A DNA stretch of 39,587 nucleotides from a virus. Below are positions 1,090 to 39,587 of this stretch, in pieces (within the stretch, counting starts at the first letter, position 1; each line of letters begins with the position of its first letter). The DNA is taken from the IMG/VR virus record IMGVR_UViG_3300037010_000715, positions 1-39,587 of that record. One strand, given 5' to 3'. Made by a program: the position numbers and the translations under genes. Under the pieces are notes generated by a model. That model had not been told where the DNA came from. It ran no database searches and saw only the letters and a program-made list of their open reading frames with translations.

Positions 1090-1095
1090 AATAAA

Positions 1096-1127
1096 TTTGT
1101 TTATTAAAATAATTATGTTTTAATTTG
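1096..1127 (+). promoter_or_regulatory. Bacteroidota-type early promoter (leader 1)
   Basis: A -33 box TTTG (1096-1099), a 20-base spacer and a -7 box TTAATTTG (1120-1127), one mismatch from TAnnTTTG. The same spacing recurs at 4042-4073 and 38896-38926, each time just before the same two-hairpin leader. The position of the transcription start is inferred. Confidence 0.65.
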
Positions 1128-1151
1128 CAAACAGATTACAAAGAGTAATTT

Positions 1152-1236
1152 ATTGGACGTTGCAGACCAATCAAAAATTTAGTCAAATAGACTAATAGAA
1201 CCCATTAGAACGAACTGCAACTCGTTTTAGTGGGTT
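1152..1236 (+). promoter_or_regulatory. Kissing-loop RNA leader, copy 1
   Basis: Hairpin 1 is ATTGG/CCAAT (1152-1156, 1167-1171) with a loop containing GTTGCAG (1159-1165). Hairpin 2 is a 15-bp stem with two G-U pairs (1199-1213 with 1222-1236) and an 8-base loop containing CTGCAAC (1215-1221), the exact complement of loop 1. Hairpin 2 is followed by a T-rich stretch and then, 17 bases on, the helicase ATG. Two further copies with different but internally complementary loops occur at 4077 and 38935. Function is inferred to be attenuation, antitermination or protein-mediated control. Confidence 0.75.
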
Positions 1237-1253
1237 TCTTATTTTATAAAATT

Positions 1254-2618
1254 ATGGAATACCAAAAATTTTTAGAAAACAAAAAACATTCAATAGGTAA
1301 TTTTGGATTTAATTCAAATTACATTCCTGAAATTGCTTTTGATTTTCAAAAACACATTATTGAAAAAGCTATCTTAAAAGGTAGAACAGCTATTTTTGCC
1401 GATACTGGTTTAGGTAAAACATTAATCCAATTATCAATAGCTAAAAATATAATTAATCATACTAATAAAAAAGTATTGATTTTAACACCTTTAGCGGTTG
1501 CTTTTCAATTTATTTTAGAAGCTGAAAAGTTAGGTATTGATGATGTTGAATATTCAAAAGACGGTAAACATACTAAAAAAATAGTTGTATGTAATTACGA
1601 GCGTTTGCATTACTTTAATGAAAATGATTTTGTAGGTGTTATTTTAGATGAAAGTTCTATATTAAAAAACTTTGACGGTAAAATTAAAAATTCAATTACA
1701 TCATTTATTAAAAAGATTCCTTATAGATTTTTATCAACTGCAACACCTAGCCCAAATGATTATATTGAATTAGGTACAAGTAGCGAAGCATTAGGATATT
1801 TAGGGTATACCGATATGTTAAGTAAGTTTTTTAAAAACAATGGTAATTCTATTGATATTAGACACGCTGGATGTGAATGGTATATTAAACCTCATGCCGA
1901 GAATGATTTTTGGAAATGGGTATCACAATGGGCTATATCAATTCGTAAACCAAGTGATTTAGGTTTTAGTGATGAAAAATATGATTTGCCAGACTTAATA
2001 GAAAATAAACACATGGTAAAAAATAATGCTATTTTAAATTCAGCAAATAATCAAATGCAAATGTTTAATATGCCAGCCGTTAATTTTTTTGATATTAAAA
2101 AAGAAACTCGTAATACATTAAACGAAAGATGCGAAAAGGCTTTTGATTTAGCTAGTAAACATGATACTAGCGTTTATTGGGTTAACTTAAATGATGAAGC
2201 TAAACTATTAAAACAATTAGATAAAAACTCATACGAGATTAAAGGGGCTATGACTATTGATCAGAAAGAAGAAATGTTAATAGGATTTGCAAAAGGTGAT
2301 ATTAAAAAACTAATTACTAAAACTAAAATAACCGCTTTTGGTTTAAATTGGCAGCATTGCAACCACACTACATATTTTCCTACTTATTCATATGAGCAAT
2401 ATTATCAAGCTATTAGAAGGTTTTGGAGATTTGGACAAAAGAATAATGTAACAGTTGACTTAGTTTTATCAGATGGTCAAACTAGAATAATGGATAGTTT
2501 ATCAGTAAAAAAACAAAAGGCAAACGATATGTTTACAAAGCTATCACAAAATGTAAATAGTATTTATGAAATACAAAAAAGAGAGTTCACAAAAGAAATA
2601 ATTAAACCTAAATTTTAA
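1254..2618 (+). CDS. SNF2/DEAH-type helicase
   Basis: A 454-residue superfamily 2 ATPase. Visible motifs: Walker A DTGLGKT at 50-56, motif II LDES at 131-134, motif III TATP at 162-165, and an arginine-finger motif VI QAIRRFWRFGQ at 385-395. The run TATPSPNDYIELG and the RKPSDLGF segment near 231-238 mark the phage family usually found beside a DNA methyltransferase, as here. The start at 1254 follows leader 1; an upstream in-frame codon at 1230 lies inside the leader hairpin and is unlikely. Role: DNA translocation or remodelling in replication, recombination or protection from host restriction; the exact job is not known. Confidence 0.88.
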   Translation: MEYQKFLENKKHSIGNFGFNSNYIPEIAFDFQKHIIEKAILKGRTAIFADTGLGKTLIQLSIAKNIINHTNKKVLILTPLAVAFQFILEAEKLGIDDVEYSKDGKHTKKIVVCNYERLHYFNENDFVGVILDESSILKNFDGKIKNSITSFIKKIPYRFLSTATPSPNDYIELGTSSEALGYLGYTDMLSKFFKNNGNSIDIRHAGCEWYIKPHAENDFWKWVSQWAISIRKPSDLGFSDEKYDLPDLIENKHMVKNNAILNSANNQMQMFNMPAVNFFDIKKETRNTLNERCEKAFDLASKHDTSVYWVNLNDEAKLLKQLDKNSYEIKGAMTIDQKEEMLIGFAKGDIKKLITKTKITAFGLNWQHCNHTTYFPTYSYEQYYQAIRRFWRFGQKNNVTVDLVLSDGQTRIMDSLSVKKQKANDMFTKLSQNVNSIYEIQKREFTKEIIKPKF

Positions 2619-3954: not shown

Positions 3955-4060
3955 TAAAATACAAAACGAATGTTACATAACGATTGACAATAAAAAATTA
4001 CAGATTAAACCTAGTAAATTTATGTTAAATAGTAAAATAAATTTGGATATTAAAAAGTAA
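3911..4060 (+). CDS. Hypothetical small protein (49 aa), overlapping
   Basis: A frame of 49 codons from an ATG inside the end of the 92-residue gene (44-base overlap). It is the only open frame covering 3955-4060. Its end contains the -33 box of the leader 2 promoter. The overlap is longer than usual here, so it may be a chance frame. Confidence 0.35.
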   Translation: MQNLETLNLPNASIDKIQNECYITIDNKKLQIKPSKFMLNSKINLDIKK

Positions 4061-4073
4061 TTGATTAATTTTG
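4042..4073 (+). promoter_or_regulatory. Bacteroidota-type early promoter (leader 2)
   Basis: TTTG at 4042-4045, 20-base spacer, and a perfect -7 box TAATTTTG at 4066-4073. It is the best of the three leader promoters and directly precedes the two-hairpin RNA. Confidence 0.72.
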
Positions 4074-4076
4074 TAA

Positions 4077-4158
4077 AGTTGTCTGGAAGCAACTCAATAA
4101 AAAAATTACTTAAAAACCTTCATTCTGCGTGTCTTCCAGCACAAAGTTTGGAGGTTTT
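4077..4158 (+). promoter_or_regulatory. Kissing-loop RNA leader, copy 2
   Basis: Hairpin 1: AGTTG/CAACT (4077-4081, 4090-4094) closing the 8-base loop TCTGGAAG. Hairpin 2: a 19-base arm pair (4113-4131 with 4140-4158) with two 2x2 internal loops, closing the 8-base loop TCTTCCAG. Seven loop bases, CTGGAAG and CTTCCAG, are complementary. A T-run follows and the next ATG is 16 bases after the stem. Same architecture as 1152 and 38935 with unrelated loop sequence. Confidence 0.78.
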
Positions 4159-4174
4159 TGCATTTAAAAAAAAT

Positions 4175-4351
4175 ATGAAAACAAAAGTTAAATTTTTAGG
4201 TTGTGATAACTTATTAGAATTAGAAAGTACAGTTAATCAATTTCTTACAACAATTAATGCAGATTACTTAGTCGATATTAAATATTCAAGTGTTTTGAAT
4301 AATGAAGAATATTATATTACTTGTTTAATAACTTATATAATTTCTGACTAA
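4175..4351 (+). CDS. Cse60-like small protein (58 aa)
   Basis: A 58-residue protein beginning MKTKVKFLG and continuing with a helix, VDIKYS and a final beta strand. This layout resembles the small Cse60 (DUF2758) family, whose function is unknown; the similarity is by eye only. The ATG at 4175 is chosen because the upstream in-frame TTG at 4061 lies in the promoter. It is the first gene behind leader 2 and shares one base with the next gene. Confidence 0.5.
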   Translation: MKTKVKFLGCDNLLELESTVNQFLTTINADYLVDIKYSSVLNNEEYYITCLITYIISD

Positions 4352-7433: not shown

Positions 7434-7441
7434 TATATTTG
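7434..7441 (+). promoter_or_regulatory. -7 promoter box of the lipoprotein gene
   Basis: A perfect TATATTTG lies only four bases before the ATG at 7446. No good -33 box is visible 20 bases upstream. If used, the mRNA would be leaderless or nearly so. Confidence 0.45.
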
Positions 7442-9817: not shown

Positions 9818-11041
9818 CTACTTACCAAACTGAGCAACCAAACGAGTATTTGCATCCTGCGGTGTAATAATACCACTACTTACCAAAGAATTTAAGGCAG
9901 TGCTAACAGTATTAAATGTATTTGCCGTTTCAACTTTATCAGTTTGTAAGTATGGTAAATGACTATAATCTAAGACTAATCGACTACCTTTATCAATACC
10001 TATAAAAGTACTTAAAGCCTGAGTAAATCCATCGGCATAAGGCACAACCGTATCGTTGTGCGTTTGAATTAATCCATGCTTTAGATTTTCATAAGTTGAA
10101 TTAATAAATAAGTTTTGATTAACTCCTAAAACGTTAAGAATAGTAATAAAATTAGCCTCTATTTGTTCCATTAACAACAAGTCTTTTGTTGGGTAACTCA
10201 TAGGTGACCACGTAACCGATCCAGTCGTAATATGTATTTTCTTTTGTCCGTCTTCTATTCCGTTTTCATTTCTATAAGTTGCTTCAAGTTCTTTTTTCTC
10301 TTCTGGCGTCATAGGCAATGCACCCATAGCATCTTTACTTTGAGAGCTTAACACGCCTATTCCACCTTTCTCAGTACTAATACAATTTAAGTATTGACTC
10401 GCAGCAACCGTATTACTTAAAGGGTATTTCATAGCTTGTAAAGGACTAAAACCAATTAAGTTATTATCTAAGTCGCTAATCTTTGACCATAAAATTTGAT
10501 TTACTTCGAAAGTTTTTTTAGTACCGTTTTCGTCATATTCATAATTACTTACAATACCTTCAAGTGTCACCTGATCGAATAATTTGCCAGTTAATTTAGG
10601 TTTAATATTTGCTGAACTAATATTTAATAAACTTTGTGGTGTAGTGCTTAATCTACTTGCGCTATTTTTATAAATGAACTGATTACCATATACGATAAGC
10701 TGAGTTAAGTATTGTTTTAAGAACGGGTTTTGCCCTTGTAATATGTTTGGATTCTCTAATAATTTAGCAACATCTGGAGGTAATGGCAATACTTCATTAC
10801 TACCTATTTTTTGTAGCATGAATTTACCATTTGCGAACATAGCCCCTAATTTATCTACTGGCGTTCTTAGTTGTGGAATGGTATTATACAAGTCGTAAGG
10901 TACTTGGGTATTAATATAAACCTCACCTTTATTTATTTGGTAATTAATTCGACTATCAAAATACTGTTTTCTTTGGTTCTTTTTATTAAACAAAGCACCA
11001 AAGCGCTCGATAAAGTTTAAATCTTGATAATTTGATTGCAT
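9818..11041 (-). CDS. Portal protein (HK97-type)
   Basis: 407 residues on the minus strand, of a length usual for HK97-type portals. The N-terminal part has VPYDLYNTIPQLRTPVDKLG. The middle has the conserved ISDLDNNLIGFSPLQAM stretch and the C-terminal third has LMEQIEANFITILNVLGVN and YENLKHG, all typical portal segments. It forms the dodecameric ring for DNA entry and tail joining. Every other recognised gene here is on the plus strand; the portal alone is inverted between terL and the protease. It therefore needs its own transcript, probably from the -7 box at 11079-11086. Confidence 0.88.
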   Translation of the reverse strand: MQSNYQDLNFIERFGALFNKKNQRKQYFDSRINYQINKGEVYINTQVPYDLYNTIPQLRTPVDKLGAMFANGKFMLQKIGSNEVLPLPPDVAKLLENPNILQGQNPFLKQYLTQLIVYGNQFIYKNSASRLSTTPQSLLNISSANIKPKLTGKLFDQVTLEGIVSNYEYDENGTKKTFEVNQILWSKISDLDNNLIGFSPLQAMKYPLSNTVAASQYLNCISTEKGGIGVLSSQSKDAMGALPMTPEEKKELEATYRNENGIEDGQKKIHITTGSVTWSPMSYPTKDLLLMEQIEANFITILNVLGVNQNLFINSTYENLKHGLIQTHNDTVVPYADGFTQALSTFIGIDKGSRLVLDYSHLPYLQTDKVETANTFNTVSTALNSLVSSGIITPQDANTRLVAQFGK

Positions 11042-12107: not shown

Positions 12108-13354
12108 TGAACGAAGAACAAATCGCAGCGCAAAACGCGCTTATAGTAAAATTAAAAGCAGAAGTTGAAGGGCTTATTGCATCAAAAAACTTCGCTGGAT
12201 TAGCTGAGGTAGAATTATTAAAAAAAGGTTTAGAAGCTTCTATTAAAGCAGAAGATTTTGAAGCTGTAAAAGTAGAGGCTATTCGTTTAGCTTCAGAAGT
12301 TAAAGCCTTAAAAGAAAATTCAAGTAACTTTGATAAAGATAAATCTTTAAAAGGTCAATTAACTAAATTTATTAATGATAACCACGAAAAAATTAAACAA
12401 GCGTTCCATTCTGGGTCGGGTGTTGTTGAGTTTAAAGTGGTAGGTGATATGTCAACAGCTTCTGCAACTGTTCCCGATGGTATTCCAACATTACAAGGGG
12501 TTCAGGTTGCGCCTCCTTCAAATGTTAATTTGCGTACAACTATTACTGATGGATTAGTTTCTGTTTTTAACACTAACTTAGCATCTTATCCGTATACTGA
12601 AACATCTGCAAAAGATGGCGATTATACTTTTTTATTAGAAGGTGGTACTAAGCAAGAGATTGACTTTACAATCGCTACACGTTATGCAGCGCCTAAGAAA
12701 TTAGCAGCATGGGAAAAATTAACAGAAGAGTCTATTAATGATATCCCCGGTTTAATTTCAATTGCATACGATTACTTAAGAAAAAAACATGATTTAAAAC
12801 GCCAAAACGGCATTTTATTTGGTGACGGTATAGGAGCTAATTTAAAAGGAGCTACAACTTACGGACGTGTATTTAGTGCTGGTGCATTAGCTAATACAGT
12901 AGTAAGTCCTAACTTTATGGATGTTGTAAATGCTGCAATTACAGATATTTTCACAACTCATAATTATACTGACGAAATGCCTTACATGGCTAACTTAGTA
13001 ATGATACACCCAAATGATTTTTATACGCAATTAGTTGCTGCTAAAGATGGTTTTGGTCATCCATTATATCCAATGGCTTCTTTATTTAACCGTGTTGTAA
13101 TTGGTGGTGCTACTATCGTACCATTTGAAGACATTCCAACTGGTAAAATATTTGTAGCGGATATGAGTAAGTACAACACTACTAACTTTGTTCCATACAC
13201 AGTAAAAATTGGTGTTGTTAATGATGACTTTATTAAAAATCAATTTGTTATTTTAGGAGAAAGCCGTTTACATGGCTTCGTTAAAAAACTAGATGAACAA
13301 GCATTTTTGTATGACGATATCGCTACAATTAAAGCAGCAATTACTTTAGTATAA
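12107..13354 (+). CDS. Major capsid protein (HK97 fold)
   Basis: 415 residues. The first 105 or so form a charged coiled coil, the delta/scaffold domain usually clipped by the protease. The rest has the HK97 capsid pattern, including VNLRTTITDG, WEKLTEESINDIPGL, a long spine-helix region and FGDG. It follows the protease with a one-base overlap. A GC-rich hairpin comes seven bases after the stop, consistent with partial termination that sets high capsid yield. Confidence 0.9.
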   Translation: MNEEQIAAQNALIVKLKAEVEGLIASKNFAGLAEVELLKKGLEASIKAEDFEAVKVEAIRLASEVKALKENSSNFDKDKSLKGQLTKFINDNHEKIKQAFHSGSGVVEFKVVGDMSTASATVPDGIPTLQGVQVAPPSNVNLRTTITDGLVSVFNTNLASYPYTETSAKDGDYTFLLEGGTKQEIDFTIATRYAAPKKLAAWEKLTEESINDIPGLISIAYDYLRKKHDLKRQNGILFGDGIGANLKGATTYGRVFSAGALANTVVSPNFMDVVNAAITDIFTTHNYTDEMPYMANLVMIHPNDFYTQLVAAKDGFGHPLYPMASLFNRVVIGGATIVPFEDIPTGKIFVADMSKYNTTNFVPYTVKIGVVNDDFIKNQFVILGESRLHGFVKKLDEQAFLYDDIATIKAAITLV

Positions 13355-14395: not shown

Positions 14396-14469
14396 TGCGC
14401 CTTAGAGAAGCGGTTCATCTCGCCAGACTCATTATCTGGAAATCATTGGTTCGATTCCAATAGGCGCTA
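14396..14469 (+). tRNA. tRNA with CAU anticodon
   Basis: A full 74-base cloverleaf. Acceptor stem: GCGCCT (14397-14402) with AGGCGC (14462-14467) plus a T1:T72 mismatch. D stem: GAGA/TCTC with GG in the loop. Anticodon stem: CCAGA/TCTGG around loop CTCATTA (anticodon 14430-14432). T arm: ATTGG/CCAAT with loop TTCGATT. U8, A9, U33 and the TTC are canonical. CAU means Met or, with lysidine, Ile. The unpaired 1:72 and A11:U24 recall initiator tRNA, but the GGG/CCC anticodon-stem pairs are absent and U37 is odd. CCA is not encoded. Confidence 0.85.
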
Positions 14470-14482
14470 CTAAGAAATAATT

Positions 14483-33712: not shown

Positions 33713-34564
33713 ATGAATGTATTAAGTTTATTTGATGGTATGAGTTGCGGACAGATTGCACTCGATAATTTAGGAATAAAAGTAGATAATTACTTTGCTA
33801 GTGAAATTAAAAAACACGCAATACAATGTACTAAAGATAATTTTCCAAACACAAAACATATTGGAGATGTAACGAAAGTAAAAGCTATTGATTTGCCTAA
33901 AATTGATTTGTTGATAGGTGGAAGTCCTTGTCAAGATTTTAGTCGTGCAAATAGTGTTCGTGATGGTTTACAGGGTATGAAATCAATGTTATTTTATGAA
34001 TACATACGATTACTTGAAGAAACGAAACCAAAATACTATTTACTCGAAAATGTGATAATGGATGATATAGGCTACAGTACAATATCCGATTTATTAGGAA
34101 CTGAACCTGTAAGATTATGCGGATCGAAAGTAAGCGGGGCATTAAGAGATAGATTGTTCTGGACTAATATTGGACCTGAAAGATTTGATTTGTTTGGAAA
34201 CCGAAAAAGTGCAATACCACAACCGAGAGATAAAAAAATATTATTGAATGATGTTTTAGAATACGGATATTCAGACAAAAAGAAACATACTTGTTTAAAT
34301 ACAAGTTGTGGCCGAGATGCTAACCAAAGATATATGTTGCACCGATACGCAACTACTGGAATGACAACAATAATTTATACAGACGAAACTATGGATGAAA
34401 GTAAAGGAGTGAGATATTGCACTCAAACAGAATTAGAAAAACTGCACAATATCCCAATAGGTTATACAAAAAACCTAAATAAAGCGCAAGCTGGTAATTT
34501 AATAGGCGATGGTTGGAATGTAGGGATTGTGGAGCACATTTTCTCTTATATGCAATTAACGTAG
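33713..34564 (+). CDS. Cassette 4 cargo: DNA C5-cytosine methyltransferase
   Basis: 283 residues with the ordered motifs of the family: motif I FDGMSCG at 7-13, motif IV GGSPCQDFS with catalytic Cys73, motif VI ENV at 112-114, a DRLFW motif VIII-like element, and the C-terminal GNLIGDGWNVGIVEHI of motifs IX-X. The target-recognition part is short. It would methylate cytosine to 5-methylcytosine, protecting DNA from host restriction. It is the largest cargo and the only clear enzyme with a known reaction. The ATG at 33713 follows attC4 by 30 bases; the earlier in-frame TTG lies inside attC4. Confidence 0.92.
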   Translation: MNVLSLFDGMSCGQIALDNLGIKVDNYFASEIKKHAIQCTKDNFPNTKHIGDVTKVKAIDLPKIDLLIGGSPCQDFSRANSVRDGLQGMKSMLFYEYIRLLEETKPKYYLLENVIMDDIGYSTISDLLGTEPVRLCGSKVSGALRDRLFWTNIGPERFDLFGNRKSAIPQPRDKKILLNDVLEYGYSDKKKHTCLNTSCGRDANQRYMLHRYATTGMTTIIYTDETMDESKGVRYCTQTELEKLHNIPIGYTKNLNKAQAGNLIGDGWNVGIVEHIFSYMQLT

Positions 34565-38875: not shown

Positions 38876-38895
38876 CATGGAAAATAAAATAAAAC

Positions 38896-38926
38896 TTGCA
38901 CAATTAAAAAAGATTAATTAATTTTA
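38896..38926 (+). promoter_or_regulatory. Bacteroidota-type early promoter (leader 3)
   Basis: TTG (38896-38898; CTTG instead of TTTG), a 20-base spacer and -7 box TAATTTTA (38919-38926), one mismatch. Same spacing as leaders 1 and 2. Confidence 0.6.
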
Positions 38927-38934
38927 CCGAGTTG

Positions 38935-39012
38935 GACGGTGGAGCGTCATATCAAACAACTAAAATTTTAACCCGATTGCCTGAGGAACTCCACTTCCAA
39001 AGGCGTCGGGTT
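38935..39012 (+). promoter_or_regulatory. Kissing-loop RNA leader, copy 3
   Basis: Hairpin 1: GACG/CGTC (38935-38938, 38945-38948) with loop GTGGAG. Hairpin 2: AACCCGA pairs with TCGGGTT, then a bulge, TGCCT/AGGCG, a 2x2 loop and GG/CC, presenting CTCCAC (38989-38994). Six loop bases are complementary. TTTCTTATTT follows as in leader 1, and the ERF start is 22 bases after the stem. Confidence 0.74.
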
Positions 39013-39034
39013 TCTTATTTAAAAACAAATCATT

Positions 39035-39568
39035 ATGGAAAACAAAACTATTGAAACGTGCTTAATGCAATTTCAAACAGAGATTGGAATCATTAAAAAA
39101 GATTCTAAAAACCCACATTTTAAAAATACCTATGCTAGTTTAGGTCAAATACTAAGCGAAGTAAAACCTATTTTAACAAAGTGTGGATTAGTATTATTAC
39201 AACCTATTGATGCTAATGGTGTTACTACTAAAATATTAATGGCTGGAGGCTCAGAAACGGACTTTGTAGAATCGTTTATTCCTTTACCTATTGGATTAGC
39301 ACCGCAACCTTTAGGCTCTGCAATTACTTATTATAGACGTTATACGTTAAGTTCATTACTAGCTTTAGAAATTGATGATGATGATGCTAGTATGGCTAGT
39401 AAGCCAGTAGAACAAAAACCAACCGCAAACGAAGTAGATTTAGTAAATTCTAAAATAATAAACGCTAAAACACTTGAAGAGTTACAAACTATGTTTAAAG
39501 CATTAACTCCATTAGAGCAAAGAATAGCTACTGAATTAAAAGATAAATTAAAATTAACACTTAAATAA
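39035..39568 (+). CDS. erf: ERF-family single-strand annealing protein
   Basis: 177 residues with the ERF core: NPHFKNTYASLGQIL at about residues 28-42, VKPILTKCGL, and GSAITYYRRYTLSSLLALEIDDDDA at about 90-114. ERF proteins coat single-stranded DNA and anneal complementary strands in phage recombination. They fit with the RusA-like resolvase downstream across the circular junction. It is the first gene behind leader 3. The C-terminal 44 residues are repeated at 2-136. Confidence 0.92.
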   Translation: MENKTIETCLMQFQTEIGIIKKDSKNPHFKNTYASLGQILSEVKPILTKCGLVLLQPIDANGVTTKILMAGGSETDFVESFIPLPIGLAPQPLGSAITYYRRYTLSSLLALEIDDDDASMASKPVEQKPTANEVDLVNSKIINAKTLEELQTMFKALTPLEQRIATELKDKLKLTLK

Positions 39569-39587
39569 AATGGAAGGCACAACACAT
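39433..39587. repeat. Terminal direct repeat, right copy
   Basis: Matches bases 1-155 with one silent difference at 39559. Joining the two gives a continuous operon from ERF into the 52-residue gene at 138. Confidence 0.9.
39570..39587 (+). CDS. Start of the 52-residue gene (repeat copy)
   Basis: Six codons identical to the start of the gene at 138-296, cut by the end of the contig. Confidence 0.7.

Follow-up and report, generated by a model that had tools for sequence, protein, structure and literature searches.

Kissing-loop leader RNAs before replication genes in viruses of Bacteroidota, probably an undescribed RNA switch

What is the role of two hairpins with mutually complementary loops that lie between a viral promoter and a helicase gene? 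The question is raised by one locus in a viral sequence of 39,587 nt, which was analysed over its full length and is called the window here. The kissing-loop leader found at this locus is a real RNA family, with many more members than the window's three, and many viruses of Bacteroidota open some of their replication-gene messages with it. It is probably an undescribed RNA switch, because hairpin 2 looks like a transcription terminator that sits immediately upstream of the gene.

The window has three leaders with kissing loops, at 1092-1253, about 4042-4174 and 38895-39034, all on the plus strand. The leader 1 promoter (1096-1127) is of the Bacteroidota TAnnTTTG type, with TTTG at -33 (1096-1099), a 20-nt spacer and TTAATTTG at -7 (1120-1127). 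Hairpin 1 (1152-1171) has the stem ATTGG (1152-1156)/CCAAT (1167-1171) and the kissing word GTTGCAG (1159-1165). This word is the exact reverse complement of CTGCAAC (1215-1221) in the loop of hairpin 2, as a preliminary description of this DNA had read it. Hairpin 2 (1198-1237) is terminator-like, with a 16-bp stem (1198-1213/1222-1237) and a local dG of -21.4, and the U-rich tract TTTCTTATTTTAT occupies 1235-1247. The gene behind it (1254-2618, plus strand) encodes a DEAD/SNF2-type helicase (Pfam Helicase_C, DEAD). The automatic helicase start at 1230, like the annotated one in Flavobacterium phage hattifnatt9-1 (L020, 9441-9477), falls inside hairpin 2, and the likely ATG lies directly 3' of the leader in both (window 1254; hattifnatt 9477).

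The two further copies named in the preliminary description were found with their loop pairs at 4083-4139 and 38939-38994. Leader 2 has the promoter TTTG-N20-TAATTTTG (4042-4073), a hairpin 1 (4077-4094) with the stem AGTTG/CAACT and the word CTGGAAG (4083-4089), and a terminator-like hairpin 2 (4111-4160) with the word CTTCCAG (4133-4139) and the 3' end GGTTTTTG. Its first gene (4175-4351, plus strand) encodes a 58-aa protein of the Spore_Cse60 family, with a Lin1244-like protein and a primase/helicase encoded downstream. In leader 3, the hairpin 1 (38930-38961) has the outer stem AGTTG/CAACT, the inner stem GACG/CGTC and the word GTGGAG (38939-38944), and the terminator-like hairpin 2 (38970-39012) has the word CTCCAC (38989-38994) and a U-tract to 39019. 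The gene for an ERF single-strand annealing protein follows (39035-39568, plus strand; Pfam ERF). Some details of the preliminary description needed correction. The promoter spacer is 20 nt in all three copies, but the promoter of copy 3 (38895-38926) is degenerate, CTTG-N20-TAATTTTA. The start codons are close, but lie 14, 16 and 22 nt after the end of hairpin 2 instead of 16-22. Both hairpins are present in every copy, but copy 1 folds two small hairpins in addition, a 5' one at 1133-1151 (AGATTAC-AAAGA-GTAATTT), which is absent from most family members, and a linker one at 1179-1195 (TTAGTC-AAATA-GACTAA), which a large subfamily has too. A terminator scan of the window flagged hairpin 2 of leaders 1 and 2. 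Promoters at 7434, 9689, 30136, 31842 and 38045 have no kissing-loop leader.

Other features of the window were noted. It has a 155-nt direct terminal repeat (1-155 = 39433-39587, 99%), into which the ERF gene extends. From this repeat, the contig probably represents a complete genome, either circular or terminally redundant. The portal protein gene (9818-11041) lies on the minus strand, opposite to the remaining structural genes (plus strand); a tRNA-Met (CAT) gene (14396-14470) lies in the structural region. Between 31200 and 38000 about a dozen small plus-strand ORFs are separated by spacers of about 60-140 nt, which start with (Y)TAACG, often end with GTTAGG or GTTATA, contain internal inverted repeats and look like integron attC sites. 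This array, which also holds an apparent DNA cytosine methyltransferase gene (about 33713-34564, by eye), may possibly consist of phage-borne gene cassettes with attC-like spacers.

The window is rich in A+T, and a chance origin of such loops has to be weighed. Many chance matches do arise in loose scans: complementary loops alone gave 35 matches in the window versus 29 in shuffles, and loop complementarity alone was dropped as a detector for lack of selectivity. A strict scan demanded a loop complement of at least 6 nt, three or more of them G+C, a hairpin around each word, a strong hairpin 2 and then a U-tract. It returned exactly the three leaders on the plus strand and none on the minus strand, versus 0.067 per sequence in dinucleotide shuffles of the window. 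A control scan of lactococcal and staphylococcal phages (216 kb) gave one match, which had no promoter. The strand control, the shuffles, the paired loop changes and the blind model recovery described below all contradict chance or an artefact of A+T-rich DNA; it is ruled out for the family as a whole, and we give it practically no credence.

The search for further homologues with covarying loops, which the preliminary description had proposed, was successful. The sample held 397 sequences (5.08 Mb), nearly all phage contigs or phage genomes, gathered via protein homology to helicase, primase, ERF and other genes. The family scan used only the two hairpins and the loop complement and ignored promoter, U-tract and ATG. 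Coding-direction strands yielded 136 distinct elements, versus 31 on the opposite strands. With a TAnnTTTG or TAnnTTCG box within 30 nt, the numbers were 95 distinct leaders versus 4. These promoter-linked leaders have a U-tract in 78 cases and an ATG within 40 nt in 88, and 52 distinct kissing-word pairs occur in the family, mostly of 6 or 7 bp (lengths of 6-9 were searched). The common anatomy is a Bacteroidota promoter, hairpin 1 from about +1, a short linker, hairpin 2 with its U-tract, and the ATG, with an element size of about 95-110 nt. The -7 box ends 2-7 nt upstream of the first hairpin 1 pair in 81 of the 95 leaders, and the aligned leaders have TATATTTG in common 3-5 nt upstream of hairpin 1. 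Because of this spacing, hairpin 1 would begin approximately at the transcription start, assuming that, as at Bacteroidota promoters, transcription starts about 5 nt downstream of the box. The rod length of the kissing complex has a narrow range, mostly 25-35 bp, and is inversely related to linker length (Spearman -0.52). This trade-off fits a kissing complex of limited span, and the assignment of segment ends could be an alternative source of it.

The covariation of the loops was tested on homologues chosen by whole-leader blastn and not by loop complement, which gave 33 distinct loop transitions. At 48 positions both sides had changed with Watson-Crick pairing kept and 172 positions were unchanged, against one one-sided G-U change and 14 mismatches (12 one-sided, 2 two-sided); the claimed covariation is borne out. 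Several of the mismatches were traced to over-extended word ends (GTGAGATTT) or to two misaligned rows (L261, L262). Examples are the step from GTGGAG/CTCCAC to GTAGAG/CTCTAC at 91% identity and that from CCACTAC/GTAGTGG to CTACTAC/GTAGTAG. In a subfamily alignment of 16 sequences, the kissing helix is 100% paired, a figure that is partly circular because the rows were picked by complementarity; five of its seven pairs changed two-sidedly and none one-sidedly, and these two-sided changes are not circular. The covariation score of the whole structure in this alignment was 0.523, versus at most 0.12 in slid controls.

A covariance model (R1) was built from the same 16-sequence alignment, with the window sequence excluded and the kiss not modelled. 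It recovered leader 1 (E=0.0019) and leader 2 (E=0.05) of the window and the leaders of phages 11b and FCV-1. It also uncovered four leaders with kissing loops that the scanner had missed: hattifnatt 14334 (GTGAGACG/CGTCTCAC), FCV-1 40354 (GTAGTGC/GCACTAC), L233 2159 (GGTCAG/CTGACC) and L349 on the minus strand (TCACGAC/GTCGTGA). Other weak matches include plain terminators, one of them at 13302 of the window. Taken together, the comparisons demonstrate evolutionary conservation of the 5' hairpin, the loop-loop pairing, the terminator-like hairpin 2 and the start codon directly after it.

Among cultured Flavobacterium phages, the leader is carried by hattifnatt9-1 (9372, before the helicase gene; 13312, before an HNH gene; 14334), snusmum6-1, 11b (33634) and the myovirus FCV-1 (35875, 40354), so it is experimentally accessible now. 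It is also present on genome contigs of a Lutibacter MAG, where a GTTGCAG leader lies directly upstream of the helicase gene, of a Parabacteroides isolate and of further Bacteroidota MAGs. When cultured phages were searched by blast, the hattifnatt leader matched only hattifnatt and snusmum, and two IMG/VR leaders matched nothing. Host genes were considered as carriers and rejected: in 299 Flavobacteriaceae genomes R1 gave five matches, all plain terminators without a kiss, and the leader therefore looks phage-specific, at the limited sensitivity of a model that represents one subfamily. Because the model matches plain terminators in these genomes, hairpin 2 looks like an intrinsic terminator of the host.

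The genes downstream of the leaders belong to 33 unrelated families, mainly primases (20), primosomal or replication-initiation proteins (14), helicases, ERF proteins, HNH endonucleases and small unknown proteins. Fourteen different loop words precede one and the same primase gene. Some orthologues of the helicase gene have only a bare promoter, and others lie leaderless inside an operon; the leader is therefore an optional promoter-linked module. Autoregulation by one downstream gene product is unlikely with so many unrelated families. Genes for HNH/NUMOD4 and, by eye, GIY-YIG endonucleases have their own kissing-loop leader in L020 (13398), L398 (40457), L338 (4194) and L180 (2881), and are probably freestanding homing endonuclease genes. 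Upstream of helicase genes some variants were seen. In L033 (3610-3790), L103 (about 9880-10000) and L095 (5192), a 5' segment of 10-13 nt, apparently without a stable hairpin of its own, complements the loop of a terminator-like hairpin. At the orthologous position, L040, L042 and L046 have a terminator-like leader of another type, which lacks both a promoter box and kissing loops.

How could such a module act? Hairpin 2 has the form of an intrinsic terminator, a G+C-rich stem followed in most leaders by a U-tract. Our main reading, with a probability of about 0.58, is that the cis-acting 5' leader RNA sets the readthrough of an intrinsic terminator that separates a host-type promoter from the start codon. 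The element would control readthrough, since expression of the gene from its own promoter requires passing hairpin 2. RNA polymerase would initiate at the Bacteroidota promoter, and hairpin 1 would stand almost at the very start of the RNA. As soon as the loop of hairpin 2 has emerged, it would pair with the hairpin 1 loop (6-8 Watson-Crick pairs) before the 3' arm of hairpin 2 and the U-tract are synthesised, and this kiss would set the termination efficiency. Early capture of the loop probably delays closure of the terminator and leads to readthrough, a direction preferred at odds of roughly three to two. For the remaining part of these odds the sign would be opposite, with the kiss reinforcing the terminator until a factor relieves it; because terminator and kiss, each fully formed, can coexist, the kiss could just as well stabilise termination. 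Interruptions occur in some U-tracts (TTTTCTCTTTTT, TTTCTTATTTT), so termination may be weak.

Attenuation had been one option of the preliminary description. Its terminator is there, hairpin 2 being terminator-like in most members, but no alternative antiterminator helix was detected. In the duplex analysis of the 5' domain only loop 2 was targeted (z -4.1, as expected from the selection of the elements), and no complementarity to the hairpin 2 arms and the start-codon region was observed (z +0.3, 0.0, +0.24). The leader is therefore no classical attenuator switch, and both a classical antiterminator helix and start-site sequestration were ruled out by these z-scores. A single phage-encoded partner protein was also sought, and no protein family was common to the window, hattifnatt, 11b and FCV-1 at E<=1e-4, which is a weak negative. 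Because the loop words vary freely and neither an alternative helix nor a shared phage protein was found, a readthrough switch would probably consist of the RNA structure and host RNA polymerase alone. More tentative, and in our view somewhat doubtful, is its specific form: a protein-free switch in which the hairpin at the 5' end of a transcript captures the apical loop of that transcript's own terminator, with interchangeable loop words and several copies per phage. Interchangeable words would allow one phage to run several switches in parallel. At six loci with two leaders (12 cross pairs), all loop cross-matches were at most 3 nt, which is consistent with orthogonal loops within one genome for this small number of pairs. 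We know of no natural regulator described with this protein-free loop-capture design.

Readthrough control has to be weighed against other uses of the same structure. In antitermination like that of put or nut, the kissing rod would bind the polymerase or recruit a factor and confer resistance to this terminator and to later ones. The location of the two hairpins where early transcripts begin, mainly those of replication-gene operons, and the narrow range of rod length would suit this, and HK022 put acts with RNA alone, needing no dedicated protein (PMC9378689). However, hairpin 2 is itself terminator-like and that of put is not, no conserved unpaired motif was noticed by eye in the aligned subfamilies, and the comparison of leader phages yielded no common protein family. 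The copies also precede several separate operons and not just the head of one long early operon, and we consider antitermination rather unlikely.

The start of hairpin 1 at about +1 and the end of hairpin 2, which in most of the first 50 tabulated leaders is no more than 24 nt from the ATG, would also be expected if the locked hairpins protected the mRNA 5' end or positioned ribosomes and termination were incidental. Against this stand the U-tracts, since the best 8-nt window has at least 5 T in 88 of the 95 leaders versus about 28% of random positions. A stable hairpin near the AUG is expected to impede translation, and the 5' domain is not complementary to the start-codon region; such a role is quite unlikely. 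A promoter, a structured RNA and a terminator also form a complete small-RNA unit, which could yield a stable trans-acting RNA of about 100 nt while the downstream gene is served otherwise. This is very improbable: an ORF starts directly after the element in 92 of the 95 leaders, before genes of unrelated families, and the loops are satisfied in cis, vary freely and do not cross-match between neighbouring leaders beyond 3 nt.

The family is apparently undescribed within the sources searched, with no description found in the literature searched. The comparison with Rfam 15 was made as the preliminary description had suggested. At gathering scores only a tRNA in the window was matched and the leaders were not. 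Five relatives searched at E<=1 gave three matches below the gathering score, one to a snoRNA and, in the leader region of L104, two to Thr_leader (E 0.0008, 0.006); the latter overlap on both strands and were judged to be chance. The loop-loop covariation of the family is unusually clean, and it occurs in Flavobacteriia phages and on a Parabacteroides isolate contig, a setting in which little is known of gene regulation. Should the kiss control the terminator, a tertiary loop-loop contact would influence transcription with no competing helix involved, and the loop pairs would be natural interchangeable parts for RNA circuits.

Among known systems, HK022 put had been proposed as the parallel. 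HK022 put has a length of about 70 nt and a V shape that includes an RNA triplex. Its second stem does not serve as a terminator, and its suppression of distant terminators works via the zinc-binding domain of beta'; no loop-loop kiss is mentioned in the structure paper (PMC9378689). Like putL and putR, the leaders are two-hairpin cis RNAs of phages, placed where early transcripts begin and probably linked to transcription elongation. In contrast, they have about 95-110 nt, a terminator-like hairpin 2, kissing loops of free sequence and Bacteroidota hosts, and the resemblance is only loose. Riboswitches and attenuators with a terminator expression platform are also 5' leaders with a terminator just upstream of the start codon, as the terminator-like hairpin is here. 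Unlike them, the leaders have no conserved aptamer core and no mutually exclusive helices, and stand before many unrelated genes. In pT181-type regulation, loop kissing governs a terminator in a 5' leader that has an alternative antiterminator fold, and a separate antisense RNA supplies the partner loop. Kissing hairpin loops are used by these antisense attenuators (PMC3753616). In the leaders, in contrast, both loops are in one RNA and no alternative fold was detected. ColE1 RNA I and RNA II, with Rop, form 6-7 bp kisses between fully complementary loops, which are intermolecular and control plasmid replication. The loop-loop complex of the leaders is similar, whereas their kiss is intramolecular and lies within the leader of the message itself.
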